64,000 bases of DNA from contig NC_135549.1 of the NCBI RefSeq assembly GCF_964340395.1, positions 11,112,342-11,176,341 on the forward strand, in the 5' to 3' direction. The stretch comes from Glandiceps talaboti. Lineage: Eukaryota > Hemichordata > Enteropneusta > Spengelidae. A program made the translations under genes and the position numbers. Every line of letters begins with the position of its first letter. Positions within the stretch are counted from its first letter, which is position 1. Positions 3,732 to 62,763 of this stretch are shown piece after piece. The notes beneath the pieces are model-generated. The model made no database searches. It saw only the letters and a program-made list of their open reading frames with translations, and had not been told where the DNA came from.

Positions 3732-6500
3732 CGATATATTTCCATCCATTTTAACAGGGTAAATTTTACTGTAATATTGTAACATATGTTTCACGTCAGT
3801 AATGATTGAGTATTGTAAGGATTGTAATAGTTTTAAGGTGTGGAAGTATTTCTTTTCAAGTCAAAATTATGGTTTATTACATGTATGTGGTTTTTTTTCT
3901 GCAAATTTTGTGTGCTTTGGTGAGTGACTATACAAATGATTCCTCTGTACATGTAATACCAGCTGAACTGTATTATAGTTTTATCATGTGTACATTTTTG
4001 GTAAAATTGATGTTGGTTGAATAGATAAATGGATTTTATGGAGACAATTACTGAAAAGTAGTTACAGAGGAGGACATTATCATGTATCAATTATGAATGT
4101 TAATGTTTTAAATACTGAAATGTGAAACTCGTCAAAGATTTAAACTGTCTATACTGGTTGTCTATACTCATTGAGTGTTGGTTCATCCGTGATCATAAAC
4201 CCAAGCCTCTTTTACGGCACCGTCCAAGACACACCCACTGCCACGAGCATGTTTCACTGCCTCAGTAGAAATATGTGGTCTGGCTTGCGAGAATGGTGTT
4301 GATTTTTTCGACTTACCTACGCTGTTAAACTTAACAAAGTACACCACATATTTACACCATTGAAGTTCAATATTGTGAACTTGACAGTTGGATATAACCA
4401 CATGTGTATTGCTGATCTTTACAAGGCTGTTGTACTAGTAAGTGTATTACATGTACCCTATATATATATTGCAGTGACATACATCAATAATATATACAGC
4501 TTGTACAACTACAAATATATACCAAAGAGACAACTACTGTTTATATTATAAACATGGATATCGCCGGGGATATCAGTTCTATTCAGGTAGAAACTGCCTT
4601 GTACCAAAAGAGAGCACGAATTATGGAGGATGCAAAATAATAAACCGATTTTAATAAAACAAAAAAATATTTACCTTATAGATGTTAGTTGTGTTATTTT
4701 TAATTGGTGTGAACTGTATATACAATGCTATTCAGACAACTTCAGATTTGTGAAGGTCGCCCTCTTGTGGCATAGTTTATATAACTCGAAGGCTCAGTAC
4801 TTGATGGAGGCTAACTGGTTAGGTTTATATATAGTCCAATAAACCTACAGAGAAATATACCTCAGCCCGCCACTAATTTGAACACAATGTCTATGTGCTT
4901 TTGTATTCAATGGATACCCATTAATGACAAATTAATTAGATGAAAATTGAAAGACATGTATTTTAATTAGTTTTAGTTTTTCGTCAAAATATTACTATTG
5001 CAGGGGTTTTCATGCTGAGAGGGTTACAATCACTTGGCCTATGAAGTCATATTTTTAAACATCTTTCTAATCAAAATAAACATTTGGGTGATTTCAACAC
5101 AGGAACAAACCTTAATTTGGGGATTGGGAAATTTTGTTTTGCACTTTTGTCTCAAAATATGGCCTGGTTAATATTTCAAGATACATTACCGTATGTTAAC
5201 TGTTGGCAAGACTGCATTAAACTTTTGTGTATGTGTATGGTATCGCAGTGAGGCGAAACGATAGCTTATTCAACTTATGAAACGATGTTAACGTTGTTAC
5301 TATGGTAACAGTAAAATGAATTGTAACGTGGCGGCTTGGTCACCTTGTTTTCGCTGACGGGGGTCGTCTCAAGTCAACAAACCCTAGCTAGGTCACAGAT
5401 TTACCGTCAATGACATGAACAGATGTTGAATTTCTGAATTAATTTATCACTGGTTATAATGTAACAAGGGTATGGACACATAATTATCTGGATTATCTAA
5501 GCTACCTTTCAAATTAATACGGCATGCATTTTCTGATTGATAAATGTGTACATGTGTAACTTAGTGTGTAAAATTTTCAATTGACACTTGTTATGATTTT
5601 GATTTTTGTCTAGTCGCTATTTATTTGTTTGTCTTGCAAAAGTCTTCTCAGTTTTGTCAGAATTTTATAAAGTTTTAACATCGCGTTCACAATTTCCTAG
5701 TGCATATAATGTATATAATTTATTCGCAGTGACACAGTCAATGTTATATTGATGGCTCTAAATTGTCAAATTAATGTTCATAATAATGGCACATGTGTTC
5801 CAAATTGCACGTAGTTACATAAACTCACCACGTATTCAGTTAACTTTATTGACGAATAACCAATCAATGTTTGGAGAGGTCAGACACTTTTGGTCAACTG
5901 GAGGACGTATCGTACACGTCACTTCATTCTTATTTACATGTATTCGATAATTAATTTGCCACGTACTAACACATACACATAACTCGTTGGTAAAGAAGTC
6001 TTTAGGACACAAGTTGAAACTTTTCGTGGCTGGTGAAATGGTGTGACGCTAAAATAATTGAACGTGTACACAGTGTTAAAAGGTAAGCTGATGCAGTCCC
6101 AAGTTGTAACGGACATAGGGATAGCGAGATTCTTTTCATTTACAGTAAATGGTTGATGTTATGTTGACTTGCATGAATTATATCATCATTCATACACGTA
6201 GTTCCATAGTTAGTTTAAAAAAATAGATTAAGATACCATCTATAACTTGCCACTTTTTGATCATAGAACGAAAATTAAAAACCCACTTTTAATCAACAAC
6301 AGCGTATATGTACATGGTGTTTGTATAGAGATAAACTATATCCCTCAAACGTGTGCTCATCACAGTACAATTAGATTTATAATTATTGGCAAATAAGCAT
6401 TCCTTGTGAGATACACCAATTTGAAGTAAATACATACCACGTTGACTTGGGTATTCTGTCTTCAATACCTTTCAGCAAAATACTCAAAAAAAGAAGAGAA
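3730..6500. other. Intergenic region upstream of the EGF/peptide precursor
   Basis: Mostly AT-rich. It should hold the promoter and 5' UTR of the gene at 6501, but I could not place them. Two short coding-looking islands, 4183-4332 (-) and 4554-4640 (+), are described separately. Confidence 0.4.
4183..4332 (-). CDS. Possible terminal exon of an unidentified gene
   Basis: On the - strand an acceptor-like TTTAACAG ends near 4333 and is followed by an open frame to TGA at 4183. Its product is rich in ordinary protein residues: it contains KSKKSTPFSQARPH and GSGCVLDGAVKEAWVYDHG at the C-terminus. The stretch is clearly more GC-rich than its flanks. No upstream exon was found, and I do not recognise the family. 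It could be a chance open frame. Confidence 0.25.
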   Translation of the reverse strand, partial: KFNSVGKSKKSTPFSQARPHISTEAVKHARGSGCVLDGAVKEAWVYDHG

Positions 6501-8647
<2,147 letters not shown>

Positions 8648-31797: not shown

Positions 31798-39330
<7,533 letters not shown>

Positions 39331-55271: not shown

Positions 55272-56333
55272 TCATGTGTTTTTCACGTTGACGTTCAGGT
55301 CGGTCATCTCTGTTTTTCCGGATAAACGACGATCCAGTTTGGAGTAGGAATCTCTGCACCATTTAGTCAGCATACAAGTGAATGCTTGATTAAAGGCTCT
55401 TCGGTAGATGGAACTCAAAGCGTTGTACACTATGGGGTTGACAGATGAATTGATCTCTAATAGGAAAGTGCTAGCGTTGAGTAAACACACTATTTGGTCT
55501 CGATTCAGGCTGATTATCGAGTACTCCAGTAAGCAGAATACGATAACTTGTAATATAGCGGGCATGGTGCAGACGAAATAAATCAAGGCCGTTGATACGC
55601 AGATACGGGTGATTTGCTTTTCCTTCTTCTTCACCGAGTGCTTGGATCGTCTGACTTTGATGATGATCATGGAATATAGTACGGTTGTTATGACGAGCAA
55701 TATAAACACACTAATAAGGTATACAACTCTTCCTGCAATTGAACGGTCGGTAGTGAAACACTCGACGAGACTCTCGACTGATATCACTGACGATGCCAAC
55801 CATGTTGTAACAATTACGACTCCTACAAAACACCTCTTGTGTATCACACCACCCCGGTAGATCAGAGGTTTGAAGAGAGCCAGATAACGTTCGATACTGA
55901 GTATAGTTATAGTGAACATTGACGCATACTGGGTGACTCGAGATGGAAATAAAGCTGCACAGTAATATAGGAAGTTTTGATGATGAAAGCATGGCTTTTG
56001 CCCGAAGATAGAGCAGTTCCAAATGAGAAAATGAACCAGTGAGTGAAGAAGATCTGCGGTGGCCAAATTCACCAGGTAAGCATTTGTTACTGTGCGCATC
56101 GAGCGAACCCGAAAAACGACGAACATGAAGGCAACATTACATATTATTCCAACAGAAGTAATAGTGGTTCCCACTATACGCTGAGTATTTTTGTCTATCA
56201 TACACGAGCCAGTAACATTACTGTCAAAGTTATCGGGATTACTGTAATCGGAATTGTTGTATAGAACGGCGTATTGCGAGTCTGTTGAAGTGTCTACGGC
56301 AGTGAAGATAACGTTCGATGTGGAAACAGCCAT
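55272..56333 (-). CDS. Orphan class A (rhodopsin-like) G-protein-coupled receptor
   Basis: One uninterrupted - strand frame of 353 residues; start context ACAATGG is strong. Seven hydrophobic segments lie at about 52-75, 86-107, 124-146, 168-187, 203-226, 246-270 and 281-305. N66 in segment 1, AD94 in segment 2, Cys125, the E-R-Y triad at 148-150, Trp178 and NPIVY at 299-303 mark the class A core. Two N-glycosylation sites lie in the N-terminal tail (N26, N39). Unusual: the conserved proline of helix 5 is missing, and the CWxP motif of helix 6 reads CTMP (255-258), so the usual toggle tryptophan is absent. The C-tail has a Cys pair near 320-326. Overall layout suits a peptide or amine receptor at the plasma membrane; the ligand is not inferred. 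It may have 5' UTR exons upstream. Confidence 0.9.
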   Translation of the reverse strand: MAVSTSNVIFTAVDTSTDSQYAVLYNNSDYSNPDNFDSNVTGSCMIDKNTQRIVGTTITSVGIICNVAFMFVVFRVRSMRTVTNAYLVNLATADLLHSLVHFLIWNCSIFGQKPCFHHQNFLYYCAALFPSRVTQYASMFTITILSIERYLALFKPLIYRGGVIHKRCFVGVVIVTTWLASSVISVESLVECFTTDRSIAGRVVYLISVFILLVITTVLYSMIIIKVRRSKHSVKKKEKQITRICVSTALIYFVCTMPAILQVIVFCLLEYSIISLNRDQIVCLLNASTFLLEINSSVNPIVYNALSSIYRRAFNQAFTCMLTKWCRDSYSKLDRRLSGKTEMTDLNVNVKNT

Positions 56334-58770: not shown

Positions 58771-58882
58771 TAATCCCTACCACAGGCGTGTACACACTAG
58801 ATTGGTACAATTCGTAGCATATAGCGAGCCGAAAGCCTCTTTTAATTGAGGTAAGTGCCTGAAGCCATGCCACGTACATATA

Positions 58883-58990
58883 CTGTGAACCGGAAAATTA
58901 TTCGCGCATTTTTAATTTCGCGCAATTTCGCGCTCGACCGTGACCGCGAAATTAAAACTGCGCGGATGTGATTATGTGCGCCCTCACACG
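58883..58990. repeat. Left terminal inverted repeat and subterminal motifs
   Basis: Perfect 20-bp outer repeat, then an inverted motif TCGCGCATTTTTAATTTCGCGC is followed by a direct copy CGCGAAATTAAAACTGCGCG at about 58952-58977. Likely transposase binding sites. Confidence 0.8.
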
Positions 58991-59057
58991 GCAATTACTG
59001 AATTTCTTTCATCTTTGTTTACACCTCCTCTATGTAGACTTACGTATGTAAGTAAGT

Positions 59058-59062
<5 letters not shown>

Positions 59063-59091
<29 letters not shown>
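59063..59091. repeat. (AC)n microsatellite inside the transposon
   Basis: About 14 AC units after a GTAAGTAAGT run. Confidence 0.95.
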
Positions 59092-59094
<3 letters not shown>

Positions 59095-59137
59095 TATCAA
59101 ACGTGAACCAATAAAGTTGTTTCAAGAATCATGTCTC

Positions 59138-59143
59138 TTTATT
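59138..59143 (-). terminator. Polyadenylation signal of the transposase
   Basis: TTTATT on the + strand, so AATAAA on the - strand, about 210 bp after the transposase stop. Confidence 0.55.
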
Positions 59144-59352
59144 TCATAACAAATCTTTCACTTGTATACACAAAAAAATCAAATATAAATATCGGTTGTA
59201 CTGAGTTAAATTCATCAAGTCGATCTCGGAATTACTGGTAAGTAAATCACATAGAATAGAATTATCCGGTAAATAAGAAAGTTCAGCAATGAAATACTGT
59301 ATGAAAAAATAAAATGCCTTTGCATCGAAGTTCGAAGTTCTAATACCAGTTT

Positions 59353-60888
59353 TTACTCGCGTTCACCACGTAAACGATCAATGATGCCTGCATCGCGAAA
59401 ACCACCTAAACACAGCTCGGGACGGTTGCTCAGTGAGTTGACAGCGTCGACTATCCACTTGGCATGAATTGGTTTCAGTTCCGATAAACGTAGGTCTACC
59501 TTCACATCAGAAATCGGGGCCGCATCATCGTTGAGTTGATCGACTACTTTGTCTGTGTACCATGACTGGAAATTGCTTCTGAGAATGTCTTTGAACGGTT
59601 TGTTGACAGCGAGGTCGAGAGGTTGGAGCTTGTCAGTACAACAAGCTGGCACAAACACTGTAGCGATGTTGTTGTTGTGTAACTTTTCAAGTAGATCTTC
59701 AGATCGATGTGCCTTGAAAACATCGAAAATGGCGAGGGCTTTCTGGTCAGCTGGTAAACCTAGTTGTTCACGGGTTGATGAGACGAACGGGATGATGACC
59801 TTGTCGACGTAGTGATGCATAGTGTCTGTGTTTGACCAATGATTAGGCGAATGGTAAATGTCCCAATCAGCTGGAAAATTGTAGCGAGGGTGGCACTGAT
59901 TTGTTTTACCCTGGTATAGAAGTTGAGGTGGTAAAACTTGACCGGCGAGAGAAATACCCAGTATAGCTGTTATCTGTCTCTTGTCGTCGAGGCCTGTTAT
60001 CGATACTTGATCACTTCCACGCAGTTCCATCGTCCAGCTGCCCGAAGGGACAATCGAAACACCGGTCTGGTCCCAGTTGAAAATGAGGTCGTCGGGAATG
60101 TGATGATCGGTGACCGCTCTATGTATTCTCTGTAGGTAGTCTTCTTTGACGGCTGGGAAGTCTTGTACGGGTTTCTTCGCGGCCTTCGTCCCTTTCCTCT
60201 TTGTGTAATTCATTCTCTTCAGTATCGACTCAGCCCAAGTTTTCGAAAGTTCATAGTTGCCACCGAATTCAGCTAGTTGTGTGCGATCTTTCTTGATAAC
60301 GATGGCCCTAGCAGTTGCTAACACGATCGGTACGTTTATAACACCGCCAGACGTACGAATTGCACGGATAACCTCTTGCACTTTCGAGTCCAAATCTCTA
60401 CCAAGCAGCAGGGGACGACCACGTTGTTTTGCAGGTAGGGTAGCTGGAACGGACCGATCTGCAGACAGTTGTTTTTTGTAGGCAGCTTTCATTGATCTTA
60501 CAGTACTTTCGTTCAGGGGTTTGTCAAGTTGTTTTGAGAAATGACGACTCGCAACCATCACACCATTTTCTGCTGCATATTTTCCAATTTTGCACCGAAT
60601 CTCAGAGGAGTACTGCTGATAAGACCCTCGCTTCCGTTTTGTAGAACCGTTGTTTGTTTTGATGAGGCACGCATCGATGTTTTCGTTGACCTCGTCAATG
60701 ACACTGTCTGGTAGACTGGGGCACTGCAATGGGGAAATCAACCCAGGACGTGGAACGGCAGGTGAACCATCAGACTTCTTGAGATATCGAAACATTGCCA
60801 TAGTGACGAGTGGATTTGCTGTGTTAAGCGAGTGACGAACTCTAGTACACAACTGGCGATTTCGTTGAATTTCGTTCATTTTATTCAT
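59353..60888 (-). CDS. Pogo-related DDE transposase
   Basis: An intact 511-residue - strand frame, without introns. Residues 84-140 (KRKRGSYQQYSSEIRCKIGK through ESTVRSMKAAYKK) look like a psq/brinker-type helix-turn-helix DNA-binding domain. A basic middle region (RGRPLLLGRD) and a second helical DNA-binding-like region follow (about 160-235). The catalytic core has NWDQTGV (D273), IFDVFKAH (D389) and LQPLDLAVNKPFKD (D425), a DD35D triad typical of the DDE_1 family that includes pogo, Tigger, Jerky and CENP-B. It cuts and re-joins element ends in the nucleus. All catalytic Asp residues are present, so the enzyme may be active. It lies inside the TIRs at 58883 and 62761 and diverges from the HIRAN gene with 582 bp between them. 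Confidence 0.93.
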   Translation of the reverse strand: MNKMNEIQRNRQLCTRVRHSLNTANPLVTMAMFRYLKKSDGSPAVPRPGLISPLQCPSLPDSVIDEVNENIDACLIKTNNGSTKRKRGSYQQYSSEIRCKIGKYAAENGVMVASRHFSKQLDKPLNESTVRSMKAAYKKQLSADRSVPATLPAKQRGRPLLLGRDLDSKVQEVIRAIRTSGGVINVPIVLATARAIVIKKDRTQLAEFGGNYELSKTWAESILKRMNYTKRKGTKAAKKPVQDFPAVKEDYLQRIHRAVTDHHIPDDLIFNWDQTGVSIVPSGSWTMELRGSDQVSITGLDDKRQITAILGISLAGQVLPPQLLYQGKTNQCHPRYNFPADWDIYHSPNHWSNTDTMHHYVDKVIIPFVSSTREQLGLPADQKALAIFDVFKAHRSEDLLEKLHNNNIATVFVPACCTDKLQPLDLAVNKPFKDILRSNFQSWYTDKVVDQLNDDAAPISDVKVDLRLSELKPIHAKWIVDAVNSLSNRPELCLGGFRDAGIIDRLRGERE

Positions 60889-61386
60889 TTTTTACGAATA
60901 AATTGACACTCGTTCATTTAAAGTTCACTAACATTTGTTGGCGGCTCGTGTTTTGACTGCTTTGACGGTGTTTCAAACAATGCAAATGTAAAGTATTGAA
61001 ACCTGTGATTTTTTCCTGCTAGGAAGGCTAAATAAGGGACGTAGACTGGTGAATTAGTTGATGATTAGCATCTAGTTGTCGATCTATTTAACCAGGATAA
61101 TACAATATAGTATTGTTTGAAACCTGTGAGGAGTCTCATTACTAGACTTTGGTGGCTGTGTCGGTGTTAAGCAAAGTATACATACAATTAATTTAAGAAC
61201 AAAAGAGATCGGTTTCACAGTTTCATACACTTGACACTTCATTTGTTGCGATTGACGGCAGTCGGTCACTCACACTTTGATGGTAATTTCGCAACACATC
61301 AGTCATTACCGCCCTGTTTTAATTGTTTTTAGTCCTCCAGTCACCTTTTGGAACATTTTGACAGCTTGGGAATGCGCGTAAACATT

Positions 61387-61440
61387 TGATTGGTCAATAA
61401 GACCTTAAATACTGCTGGAAACTTACGCAGCAGATCAGTT
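61387..61440 (+). promoter_or_regulatory. Probable promoter of the HIRAN gene
   Basis: ATTGG (an inverted CCAAT) at about 61389-61393, TATA-like TTAAATA at 61405-61411, and an initiator-like TCAGTT at 61435-61440, about 32 bp after the start of the TATA-like box. The ATG is 34 bp further. This is a consensus reading only. Confidence 0.4.
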
Positions 61441-61470
61441 GCATACTGTACCTTCAAGTACCAAGCAAGT

Positions 61471-61860
61471 ATGAAAGTCATCATCAGAGGTGTTCTTGCT
61501 GTCGGCATGTCTCACTATGGTGACGGCAGGCAGTTGAAAGTGGGACAGGGCTACCAACTCCAAAGAGACACTGATAACCCATACGATAGGAACGCTGTAG
61601 CAGTAGTCGGCATGGACGATGGAAAGAAAGTAGCGAGTCTGAAGAGGGATGCGGCCAGGGTTTTGGCGAAGGTAATGGATCTTGGGTTTTCATCCGATGA
61701 CCGTTACCTGATCAAGCCAAAGGAGAACGCCTTCTTTCACTCTCGTAGAGTGGGTAGGGCCCAGGTATGCAACCTCGGGTTCCGTTTACACGAGAGTAAG
61801 GAAATGGCAGTAAGAAATCTCCTCCGATGTACGGCCCTTCAATACAGTGTCACTGTATAA
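61471..61860 (+). CDS. HIRAN-domain protein carried by the transposon
   Basis: A 129-residue frame from ATG 61471; the longer frame to 61390 has no ATG at its start. Residues 5-70 read as a HIRAN domain: GVLAVGMSHYG, then VGQGYQLQRDTDNPYDRNAV and KKVASLKRDAARVLAKVMD. The NPYDRNAV and LxRDxxNPYD signature matches the family, which occurs in HLTF/Rad5-type repair helicases and as small stand-alone proteins, and in HLTF binds 3' single-strand DNA ends. No helicase or RING domain is present, so this is a stand-alone HIRAN protein. It lies inside the element on the strand opposite to the transposase. It could bind excision or replication intermediates. Alternative: a host gene captured by the element. 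Confidence 0.82.
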   Translation: MKVIIRGVLAVGMSHYGDGRQLKVGQGYQLQRDTDNPYDRNAVAVVGMDDGKKVASLKRDAARVLAKVMDLGFSSDDRYLIKPKENAFFHSRRVGRAQVCNLGFRLHESKEMAVRNLLRCTALQYSVTV

Positions 61861-62639
61861 GTTCGTCATCGCCTTCAATTTAAAGGCATGATTCAAACGG
61901 CCCTTTTCAGGGCCACCACATCCTCCAAAAAGAGAACCACCATTAACCAGCACTTGAATTGTAGTCTGTCACCACACACAGTATAAAGCTAGATCTCCAC
62001 TCATTCACTTTGTATGTATGTATACATGTGTATGTACTGTATGCATGTATGTTTGTGAAATGATGTCGACATGTATAAGTGTGACTATAACACATTCCTT
62101 GTCGATAAAAGCAACAAACAAAAAATACTAGTAACCTCACTCATTTCATACTACCAATCTCCCTAAACTGGTTCAGGTATTTTTGTTTGCTTGGTTGTTC
62201 ATGCCATTTTATTGATAAAAGAATCATATACAGTATTGTAAGTAACGTGTAGCAATCTAATCATTCTCTGTGACTTCGGATACTGAGTATCAAAATGTAA
62301 CCAACGTGACCTTTTGAACTTCATTCCAAAACGACGCAAAACAGAGACACTGACGTGATTTGATTAGTGTTTCACCAAACTTGTGACTGTACCATATTGA
62401 CGCATGTGTGTTGGCGGCTCCTGCTTTGAGGCTGTGACCTACCCGACTTTCGTATTGTGTGATCTGGTAACTTGTCTAGTACATACTATTAATTGAACAA
62501 ATTAACACCTACATTTGTTACAAGTCAACGTGTCACAGTATGTTCGCAGTTGGAAACAATAGAGCACTGCAACTGACGGATGCCGACAGAGCAATACTGC
62601 CCATCAATCAGTGTCAAATTTCATTGTTCTCAGCTCAAC

Positions 62640-62761
62640 GTATTGTTTATGTTCACACAAAAAAACCACTGACGGCCTTACGCGAAAATTAAACTGCGCG
62701 TAATCACCGTGATCTCCCAAAGCGCGAAAATAAGACTGCGCAATAATTTTCCGGTTCACAG
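62640..62761. repeat. Right terminal inverted repeat and subterminal motifs
   Basis: ACGCGAAAATTAAACTGCGC (about 62677-62699) and GCGCGAAAATAAGACTGCGC (about 62722-62741) repeat the subterminal motif, followed by the outer 20-bp repeat ending at 62761. Confidence 0.8.
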
Positions 62762-62763
62762 TA

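Follow-up and report, generated by a model that had tools for sequence, protein, structure and literature searches.

Here, we identified a complete transposon of the pogo superfamily (positions 58883 to 62761) in a stretch of 64,000 nucleotides (nt) from the hemichordate Glandiceps talaboti (RefSeq assembly GCF_964340395.1, contig NC_135549.1, forward-strand positions 11,112,342 to 11,176,341), hereafter called the window. Beside its transposase gene, the element carries a stand-alone HIRAN gene with a histone-type 3′ end that is nearly letter-identical to the end of a host histone H4 gene, and HIRAN genes with such an end recur in other copies and in a second kind of transposon. We tentatively propose that the HIRAN protein is made mainly in S phase and occupies 3′ ends against helicases of the HLTF type. 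A search of the open-access literature, which was judged by titles, opening lines of abstracts and counts and did not cover subscription papers or Repbase and similar databases, listed no report of HIRAN or of histone stem-loops in transposons.

The features of the element are as follows.

58881-58882, unstranded: TA target dinucleotide at the left end, from the sequence
58883-58902, plus strand: left terminal inverted repeat, CTGTGAACCGGAAAATTATT, from repeat analysis
58945-58964, plus strand: subterminal repeat, CGCGAAATTAAAACTGCGCG, with further copies (85-90%) at 62681-62700 and 62723-62742
59138-59143, minus strand: AATAAA polyadenylation signal of the transposase gene, 210 nt beyond the transposase stop
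59353-60888, minus strand: pogo-superfamily transposase, open frame of 511 amino acids, with D273, D389 and D425 (DD35D)
60463-60564, unstranded: apparent mosaic switch, from the change of identity against loci L040, L039, L010 and L009
61389-61393, minus strand: inverted CCAAT motif, 82 nt upstream of the HIRAN ATG (motif match only)
61405-61411, plus strand: TATA-like TTAAATA, 66 nt upstream of the HIRAN ATG (motif match only)
61471-61860, plus strand: stand-alone HIRAN gene, 129 amino acids in a single open frame from ATG, from the reading frame, profile and structure model
61894-61939, plus strand: match to Rfam RF00032 (Histone3), 36.1 bits against a gathering level of 34
61899-61914, plus strand: stem-loop, GGCCCTTTTCAGGGCC, 38 nt past the HIRAN stop
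61925-61937, plus strand: CCAAAAAGAGAAC, the same letters as in host H4 genes; candidate histone downstream element (U7 site), from its position and purine content
62742-62761, minus strand: right terminal inverted repeat, from repeat analysis
62762-62763, unstranded: TA target dinucleotide at the right end, from the sequence

Ends and transposase

A preliminary description of this stretch had reported exact 20-bp inverted ends with TA duplications, bracketing an intact DDE transposase and an intact stand-alone HIRAN gene in divergent order. All of this was borne out: the ends at 58883-58902 and 62742-62761 are identical and each is flanked by TA, and the open frames and profile matches agree with two intact genes lying head to head. 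What that reading of the element had missed is the histone-type 3′ end (61894-61939) and the apparent mosaic switch. No third copy of CTGTGAACCGGAAAATTATT was found within the window at up to three mismatches (chance expectation 0.01), and the wider terminal arms are 96% identical over 26 nt. Judging from the sequence, the three subterminal repeats are candidate binding sites of the transposase.

The transposase frame matches the DDE_1 profile (E = 1.3e-14), together with a weak match to HTH_Tnp_Tc5, the DNA-binding domain of the pogo superfamily (13.8 bits, below the cut-off of 22.2). In the transposase alignment, D389 and D425, spaced 35 residues apart, are present in 15 of 15 sequences and D273 in 13 of 15. 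The TA duplication (found likewise at L010), the terminal inverted repeats of no more than 40 bp and the DDE_1 domain are those of the pogo superfamily, and the DD35D triad is a mark of the Passer family; Fot elements are reported to have the same DD35D spacing (PMC7386202). The earlier suggestion that a pogo-type transposon carries a HIRAN protein of its own is supported. Chance or artefact as the origin of these features was ruled out by the end counts, the RF00032 match and the reversed-pattern control given below.

The HIRAN gene and its histone-type 3′ end

The HIRAN gene matches profile PF08797 over residues 2-129 (E = 6e-12; 45.7 bits against a cut-off of 24.7), and its predicted structure model has the HIRAN fold, with a predicted local distance difference test score (pLDDT) of 94.8. 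HIRAN is the only domain of the 129-residue protein, in which the profile scan found neither an SNF2 motor nor a RING. Residues N91, Y93 and D94 of HLTF have counterparts in N36, Y38 and D39, and of the two tyrosines of the HLTF dinucleotide pocket, Y93 is kept as Y38 and Y72 is replaced by H15; the dinucleotide-binding pocket of HIRAN is described in PMC4666394. Most of the 31 aligned database relatives, which were limited to proteins of 0.55 to 1.75 times the query length, retain a common C-terminal motif. HIRAN relatives are also encoded on nine viral contigs (L030-L038).

The RF00032 match 3′ of the HIRAN frame is the sole Rfam match in the window to reach gathering level. Its block is identical to that of the host H4 gene at L042 in 46 of 48 bases, the purine-rich U7-type site included, and the distance from stop to hairpin, 38 nt, compares with 24-27 nt in three host H4 genes. 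The transposase gene has an ordinary polyadenylation signal, unlike the HIRAN gene, after which the only such signal within the element is ATTAAA, 828 nt downstream. In the three H4 genes read, TATA stands about 70-75 nt before the ATG; a histone-like promoter for HIRAN was not retained, as its support was limited to single motif matches without a control.

Other copies and mosaic structure

A search of the genome (590 Mb; copy counts are lower bounds throughout) gave at least 50 matches to the HIRAN protein. The closest among the matches listed are L009, L010 and L011, which are about 95% identical, and L012 (73%). At L010, both ends stand beside TA, the transposase is broken and HIRAN is open, so that the HIRAN gene recurs between the same ends, as the preliminary description had expected of further copies. 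L009 and L011 retain the HIRAN region together with the right end, and L012 retains the HIRAN region, with no end found there. A single stop interrupts the HIRAN frame of L009, and the frames of L011 and L012 are either truncated or disrupted. That HIRAN was a host gene which a transposon overran is ruled out by its recurrence inside the same kind of ends.

Copies lacking the gene would have refuted the preliminary description, an outcome that did not arise among the few copies of the subfamily. HIRAN sequence is present at all five places of the subfamily that retain the right half (the window and L009-L012), of which L011 and L012 cannot prove constant presence because both were found using HIRAN; the unbiased count, restricted to right-half copies that the transposase search recovered as well (the window, L009 and L010), is three of three, on few copies. 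L039 and L040, both transposase fragments, end short of the HIRAN position. Fifteen short fragments from the N-terminal part of the transposase (residues 66 to 104-110; 81-92% identical) may represent a miniature element, and L010 holds about 0.9 kb extra (5766-6657) that separates its HIRAN gene from the right end. Short repeats with only the last third of HIRAN, perhaps non-autonomous derivatives, are found at L027 (G000:C5) and in ten matches like it; L027, the sole one of them read, also retains the histone-type hairpin.

The window element is apparently a mosaic. Left of about 60463, its identity is 96.4% with L040 over 895 columns, 79% with L039 and 73-85% with L010 (in 150-base coding bins), while L010 and L039 are 96% identical to each other. 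To the right of about 60564, the identity is about 97% with L010 and L009, and 82% with L040 over 187 bases. At its right end the window element agrees with its own left end, whereas L009, L010 and L011 have another terminal sequence. These few copies are most simply read as a HIRAN-bearing right half linked to the left half of another subfamily, with the HIRAN half seemingly acting as a module.

The nearest sister family, with a transposase 57% identical, has six near-identical matches with open frames. Its fetched copy, L041, has an intact transposase of 473 amino acids and short inverted ends about 2.3 kb apart, without HIRAN. Because this HIRAN-less sister element is also intact, HIRAN is best seen as an added module, and HIRAN as a general partner of pogo elements is ruled out. 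No HIRAN gene was found near the transposase matches of 57%, 50% and 49% identity among the HIRAN matches listed, with coordinates compared by eye.

A second HIRAN-bearing transposon

Thirteen loci (L013-L025) share the sharp left boundary CAGTCAAGTCGATCGCC with unrelated flanks, giving at least 13 copies of a second element. Its right end was reached in two copies, with 5-bp duplications ATATG (L013) and TTCGT (L023). In the L013 copy, of about 8.3 kb (L013 4727-9901, continuing in L029), the left end holds the HIRAN gene, and the opposite strand encodes a DUF6589-like gene that is split over several frames (23.9 bits, below the Pfam cut-off of 27). The HIRAN frames are open in 13 of 13 copies, and the protein shares 45% identity with its window counterpart. 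Both elements carry a stand-alone HIRAN with a histone-type 3′ end, and the second differs from the window element in its CAGTC ends, its DUF6589-like main gene and its 5-bp duplication instead of TA. A third HIRAN gene, at L026, accompanies an open DUF6589-like frame of 496 amino acids (19.7 bits, below cut-off); its own frame continues through the hairpin, and element ends were not found at this locus. DUF6589 as a known transposase fold was set aside, with a structure model of mean pLDDT 39.9 and no fold claimed, and no paper on DUF6589 was found in the open-access literature.

Histone-type ends across the genome

The window and eight loci (143 kb) gave four Rfam matches at gathering level, all to RF00032, and 15 further loci gave 12 RF00032 matches, one each in L014-L025 and none in L039, L040 or L041. 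Altogether, 16 of the 21 HIRAN loci read reach the RF00032 gathering level (L027 among them, with only a HIRAN tail). L009-L012 and L028 lie below it (L010 at 27.9 bits against 34), and the core hairpin is present with zero or one mismatch at 21 of 21. Of 12 additional HIRAN places on the contigs listed, with coordinates compared by eye, the hairpin stands 50-84 nt downstream at seven, and the five without it are weak HIRAN matches.

The exact hairpin pattern occurs at 185 places in the genome, against none for the reversed control, and all but two of the hairpin matches listed have the GGCCC/GGGCC form. Twenty of the 185 places were read, two from clusters and 18 dispersed. Histone H4 genes were found at three (L042, L043 and L058), and L053 looks like a histone H1 gene. 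Thirteen dispersed places share one repeated context (L044-L050, L052, L055-L057, L060 and L061), in which a repeated open reading frame (ORF) precedes the hairpin in 11; the hairpin lies 40 nt past the stop in nine of these. Two scanned copies of this repeated ORF had no Pfam family above cut-off. In addition, L051 has a P2RX7_C ORF (243-596; E = 8.4e-15), 144 nt upstream of a histone-type hairpin, and L054 and L059 complete the 20 places read.

The 3′ block is nearly unchanged among the window element, the second element and L026, although their coding parts have diverged widely; the second element has 20 nt from stop to hairpin. A 1-nt shortening after the hairpin is common to the second element and L026 and is not found in the window or the three H4 genes, which argues for a histone-type end inherited with the gene, not recaptured. 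It is also worth adding that a database protein, P0126, continues past the usual end into RPFSGPTYPPRRELP, presumably what a histone-type block would encode if translated.

Three other ORFs in the window lie outside the transposon. An ORF of 239 amino acids (7928-8647) has repeated CGxxCLP and CxxGxNCPP units between dibasic sites and resembles a multi-copy peptide precursor; a single-frame ORF of 353 amino acids (55272-56333) is seven-helix receptor-like; and an ORF at 38410-39330 resembles the C-terminal part of an APEX2-type nuclease.

Possible role of the HIRAN gene

In histone genes, a 3′ end of this type is established to tie mRNA supply to S phase. Because the HIRAN gene has the same stem-loop and downstream site as host histone genes, we predict that the protein is produced mainly during that phase: the 3′ end of the HIRAN mRNA would be processed by SLBP and U7, and HIRAN supply would be limited mainly to S phase. 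Bound to the 3′ ends that the transposase leaves, the protein may act as a decoy that stops HLTF-type helicases from stripping the transposase, so that the cut complex would stay intact. The preliminary description had suggested that HIRAN protects the ends or directs their repair; we favour protection because isolated HLTF HIRAN reportedly inhibits the removal of Cas9 from cut DNA by HLTF, with much weaker inhibition by an N90A-N91A mutant (PMC11237066); a decoy is also the simplest role for a transposon HIRAN that has no motor.

Several results weigh against this proposal. The intact HIRAN-less L041 indicates that HIRAN is not needed for pogo mobility, and both frames are open only in the window copy among the subfamily copies found. 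The histone-type ending alone does not point to HLTF, since other repeated genes have it too. In the protein, two HLTF residues are changed, Y72 to H15 and N90 to D35. The check for purifying selection that the preliminary description had called for gave a mixed answer on small samples: the ratio of non-synonymous to synonymous substitution (dN/dS) is 0.20-0.26 among the window, L009 and L010 (one-sided binomial 0.010-0.028, from pairs that are not independent), but 0.77 in L011 (two synonymous and five non-synonymous changes), and four of seven variable coding sites are non-synonymous in the second element. Between the window and L010, the HIRAN coding sequence is not more conserved than the adjoining non-coding sequence. 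The evidence for selection is therefore weak, and purifying selection is suggested at most.

An alternative explanation is that the HIRAN module is a passenger, a captured histone-style mini-gene spread by recombination and without a role in transposition. The intact sister element, the apparent switch that joins the HIRAN half to a different left half, the similar 3′ end of other repeated genes and one P2RX7_C gene, and the weak selection signal would all suit a passenger. We consider it unlikely, as the HIRAN frames of the second element are open in every copy, the gene and its 3′ end are kept together in two different element types, and most aligned database relatives have the common C-terminal motif. 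The hairpin itself could be a neutral relic that stems from insertion next to a histone gene, with a polyadenylated mRNA. A near-identity to host H4 would be expected of a relic; however, the hairpin is present at all 21 HIRAN loci read and in several elements, its block is conserved although the HIRAN proteins are 45% identical, the shared 1-nt shortening suggests that the end was inherited along with the gene, the P0126 frame runs on through a comparable block and no close polyadenylation signal follows HIRAN, all of which makes a relic highly improbable.

HIRAN might instead act positively, close to the idea of the preliminary description, by binding 3′ ends and recruiting replication or homology repair; the donor site would then be refilled during S phase, and copy number would rise. 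Binding of HIRAN to 3′-OH ends is reported, and a role in guiding HLTF to the 3′ ends at forks has been proposed (PMC11237066), the dinucleotide-binding pocket (PMC4666394) is in keeping with this, and the ending implies supply in S phase. Yet the window protein is HIRAN alone, without motor or RING, and isolated HIRAN is inhibitory in the assays of PMC11237066, and a positive role appears rather improbable.

The HLTF decoy made in S phase remains the explanation that we prefer, short of holding it probable. The presence of such 3′ ends in a second transposon type and in other repeated genes suggests a habit and not an accident. It is conceivable, though we hold it with more reserve, that animal transposon types repeatedly put small cargo genes on the host's histone 3′ ends, with mRNAs that lack a tail and are timed to S phase, HIRAN cargo being an anti-HLTF cap that keeps the transposase bound. 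Through RNA processing, a transposon gene with a histone-like end would tie the supply of its protein to DNA replication, a route of which the literature searches returned no description. The timing of cut-and-paste elements to S phase, an old question, would thereby become testable, and a natural stand-alone HIRAN could be a possible inhibitor of fork remodelling.

Comparison with known systems

The Passer family, in the pogo superfamily of IS630-Tc1-mariner, is described with the same TA target, terminal inverted repeats below 40 bp, DDE_1 domain and DD35D triad, and the window element, at 3.9 kb, is inside its reported range of 1.2-5.2 kb (PMC7386202). Passer elements are described there as having one or two ORFs encoding transposases, whereas the second gene of the window element is HIRAN with a histone-type 3′ end. 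The Tec elements of ciliates, of Tc1/mariner type, are reported to have an extra recombinase ORF (PMC7325037), in contrast to the HIRAN gene with its histone-like end. HLTF and Rad5 combine HIRAN with an SNF2 motor and RING, and the window protein is a stand-alone HIRAN. Replication-dependent histone genes have a stem-loop, a spacer and a purine-rich site like those 3′ of the window HIRAN gene; unlike them, this gene encodes HIRAN and sits inside a transposon.

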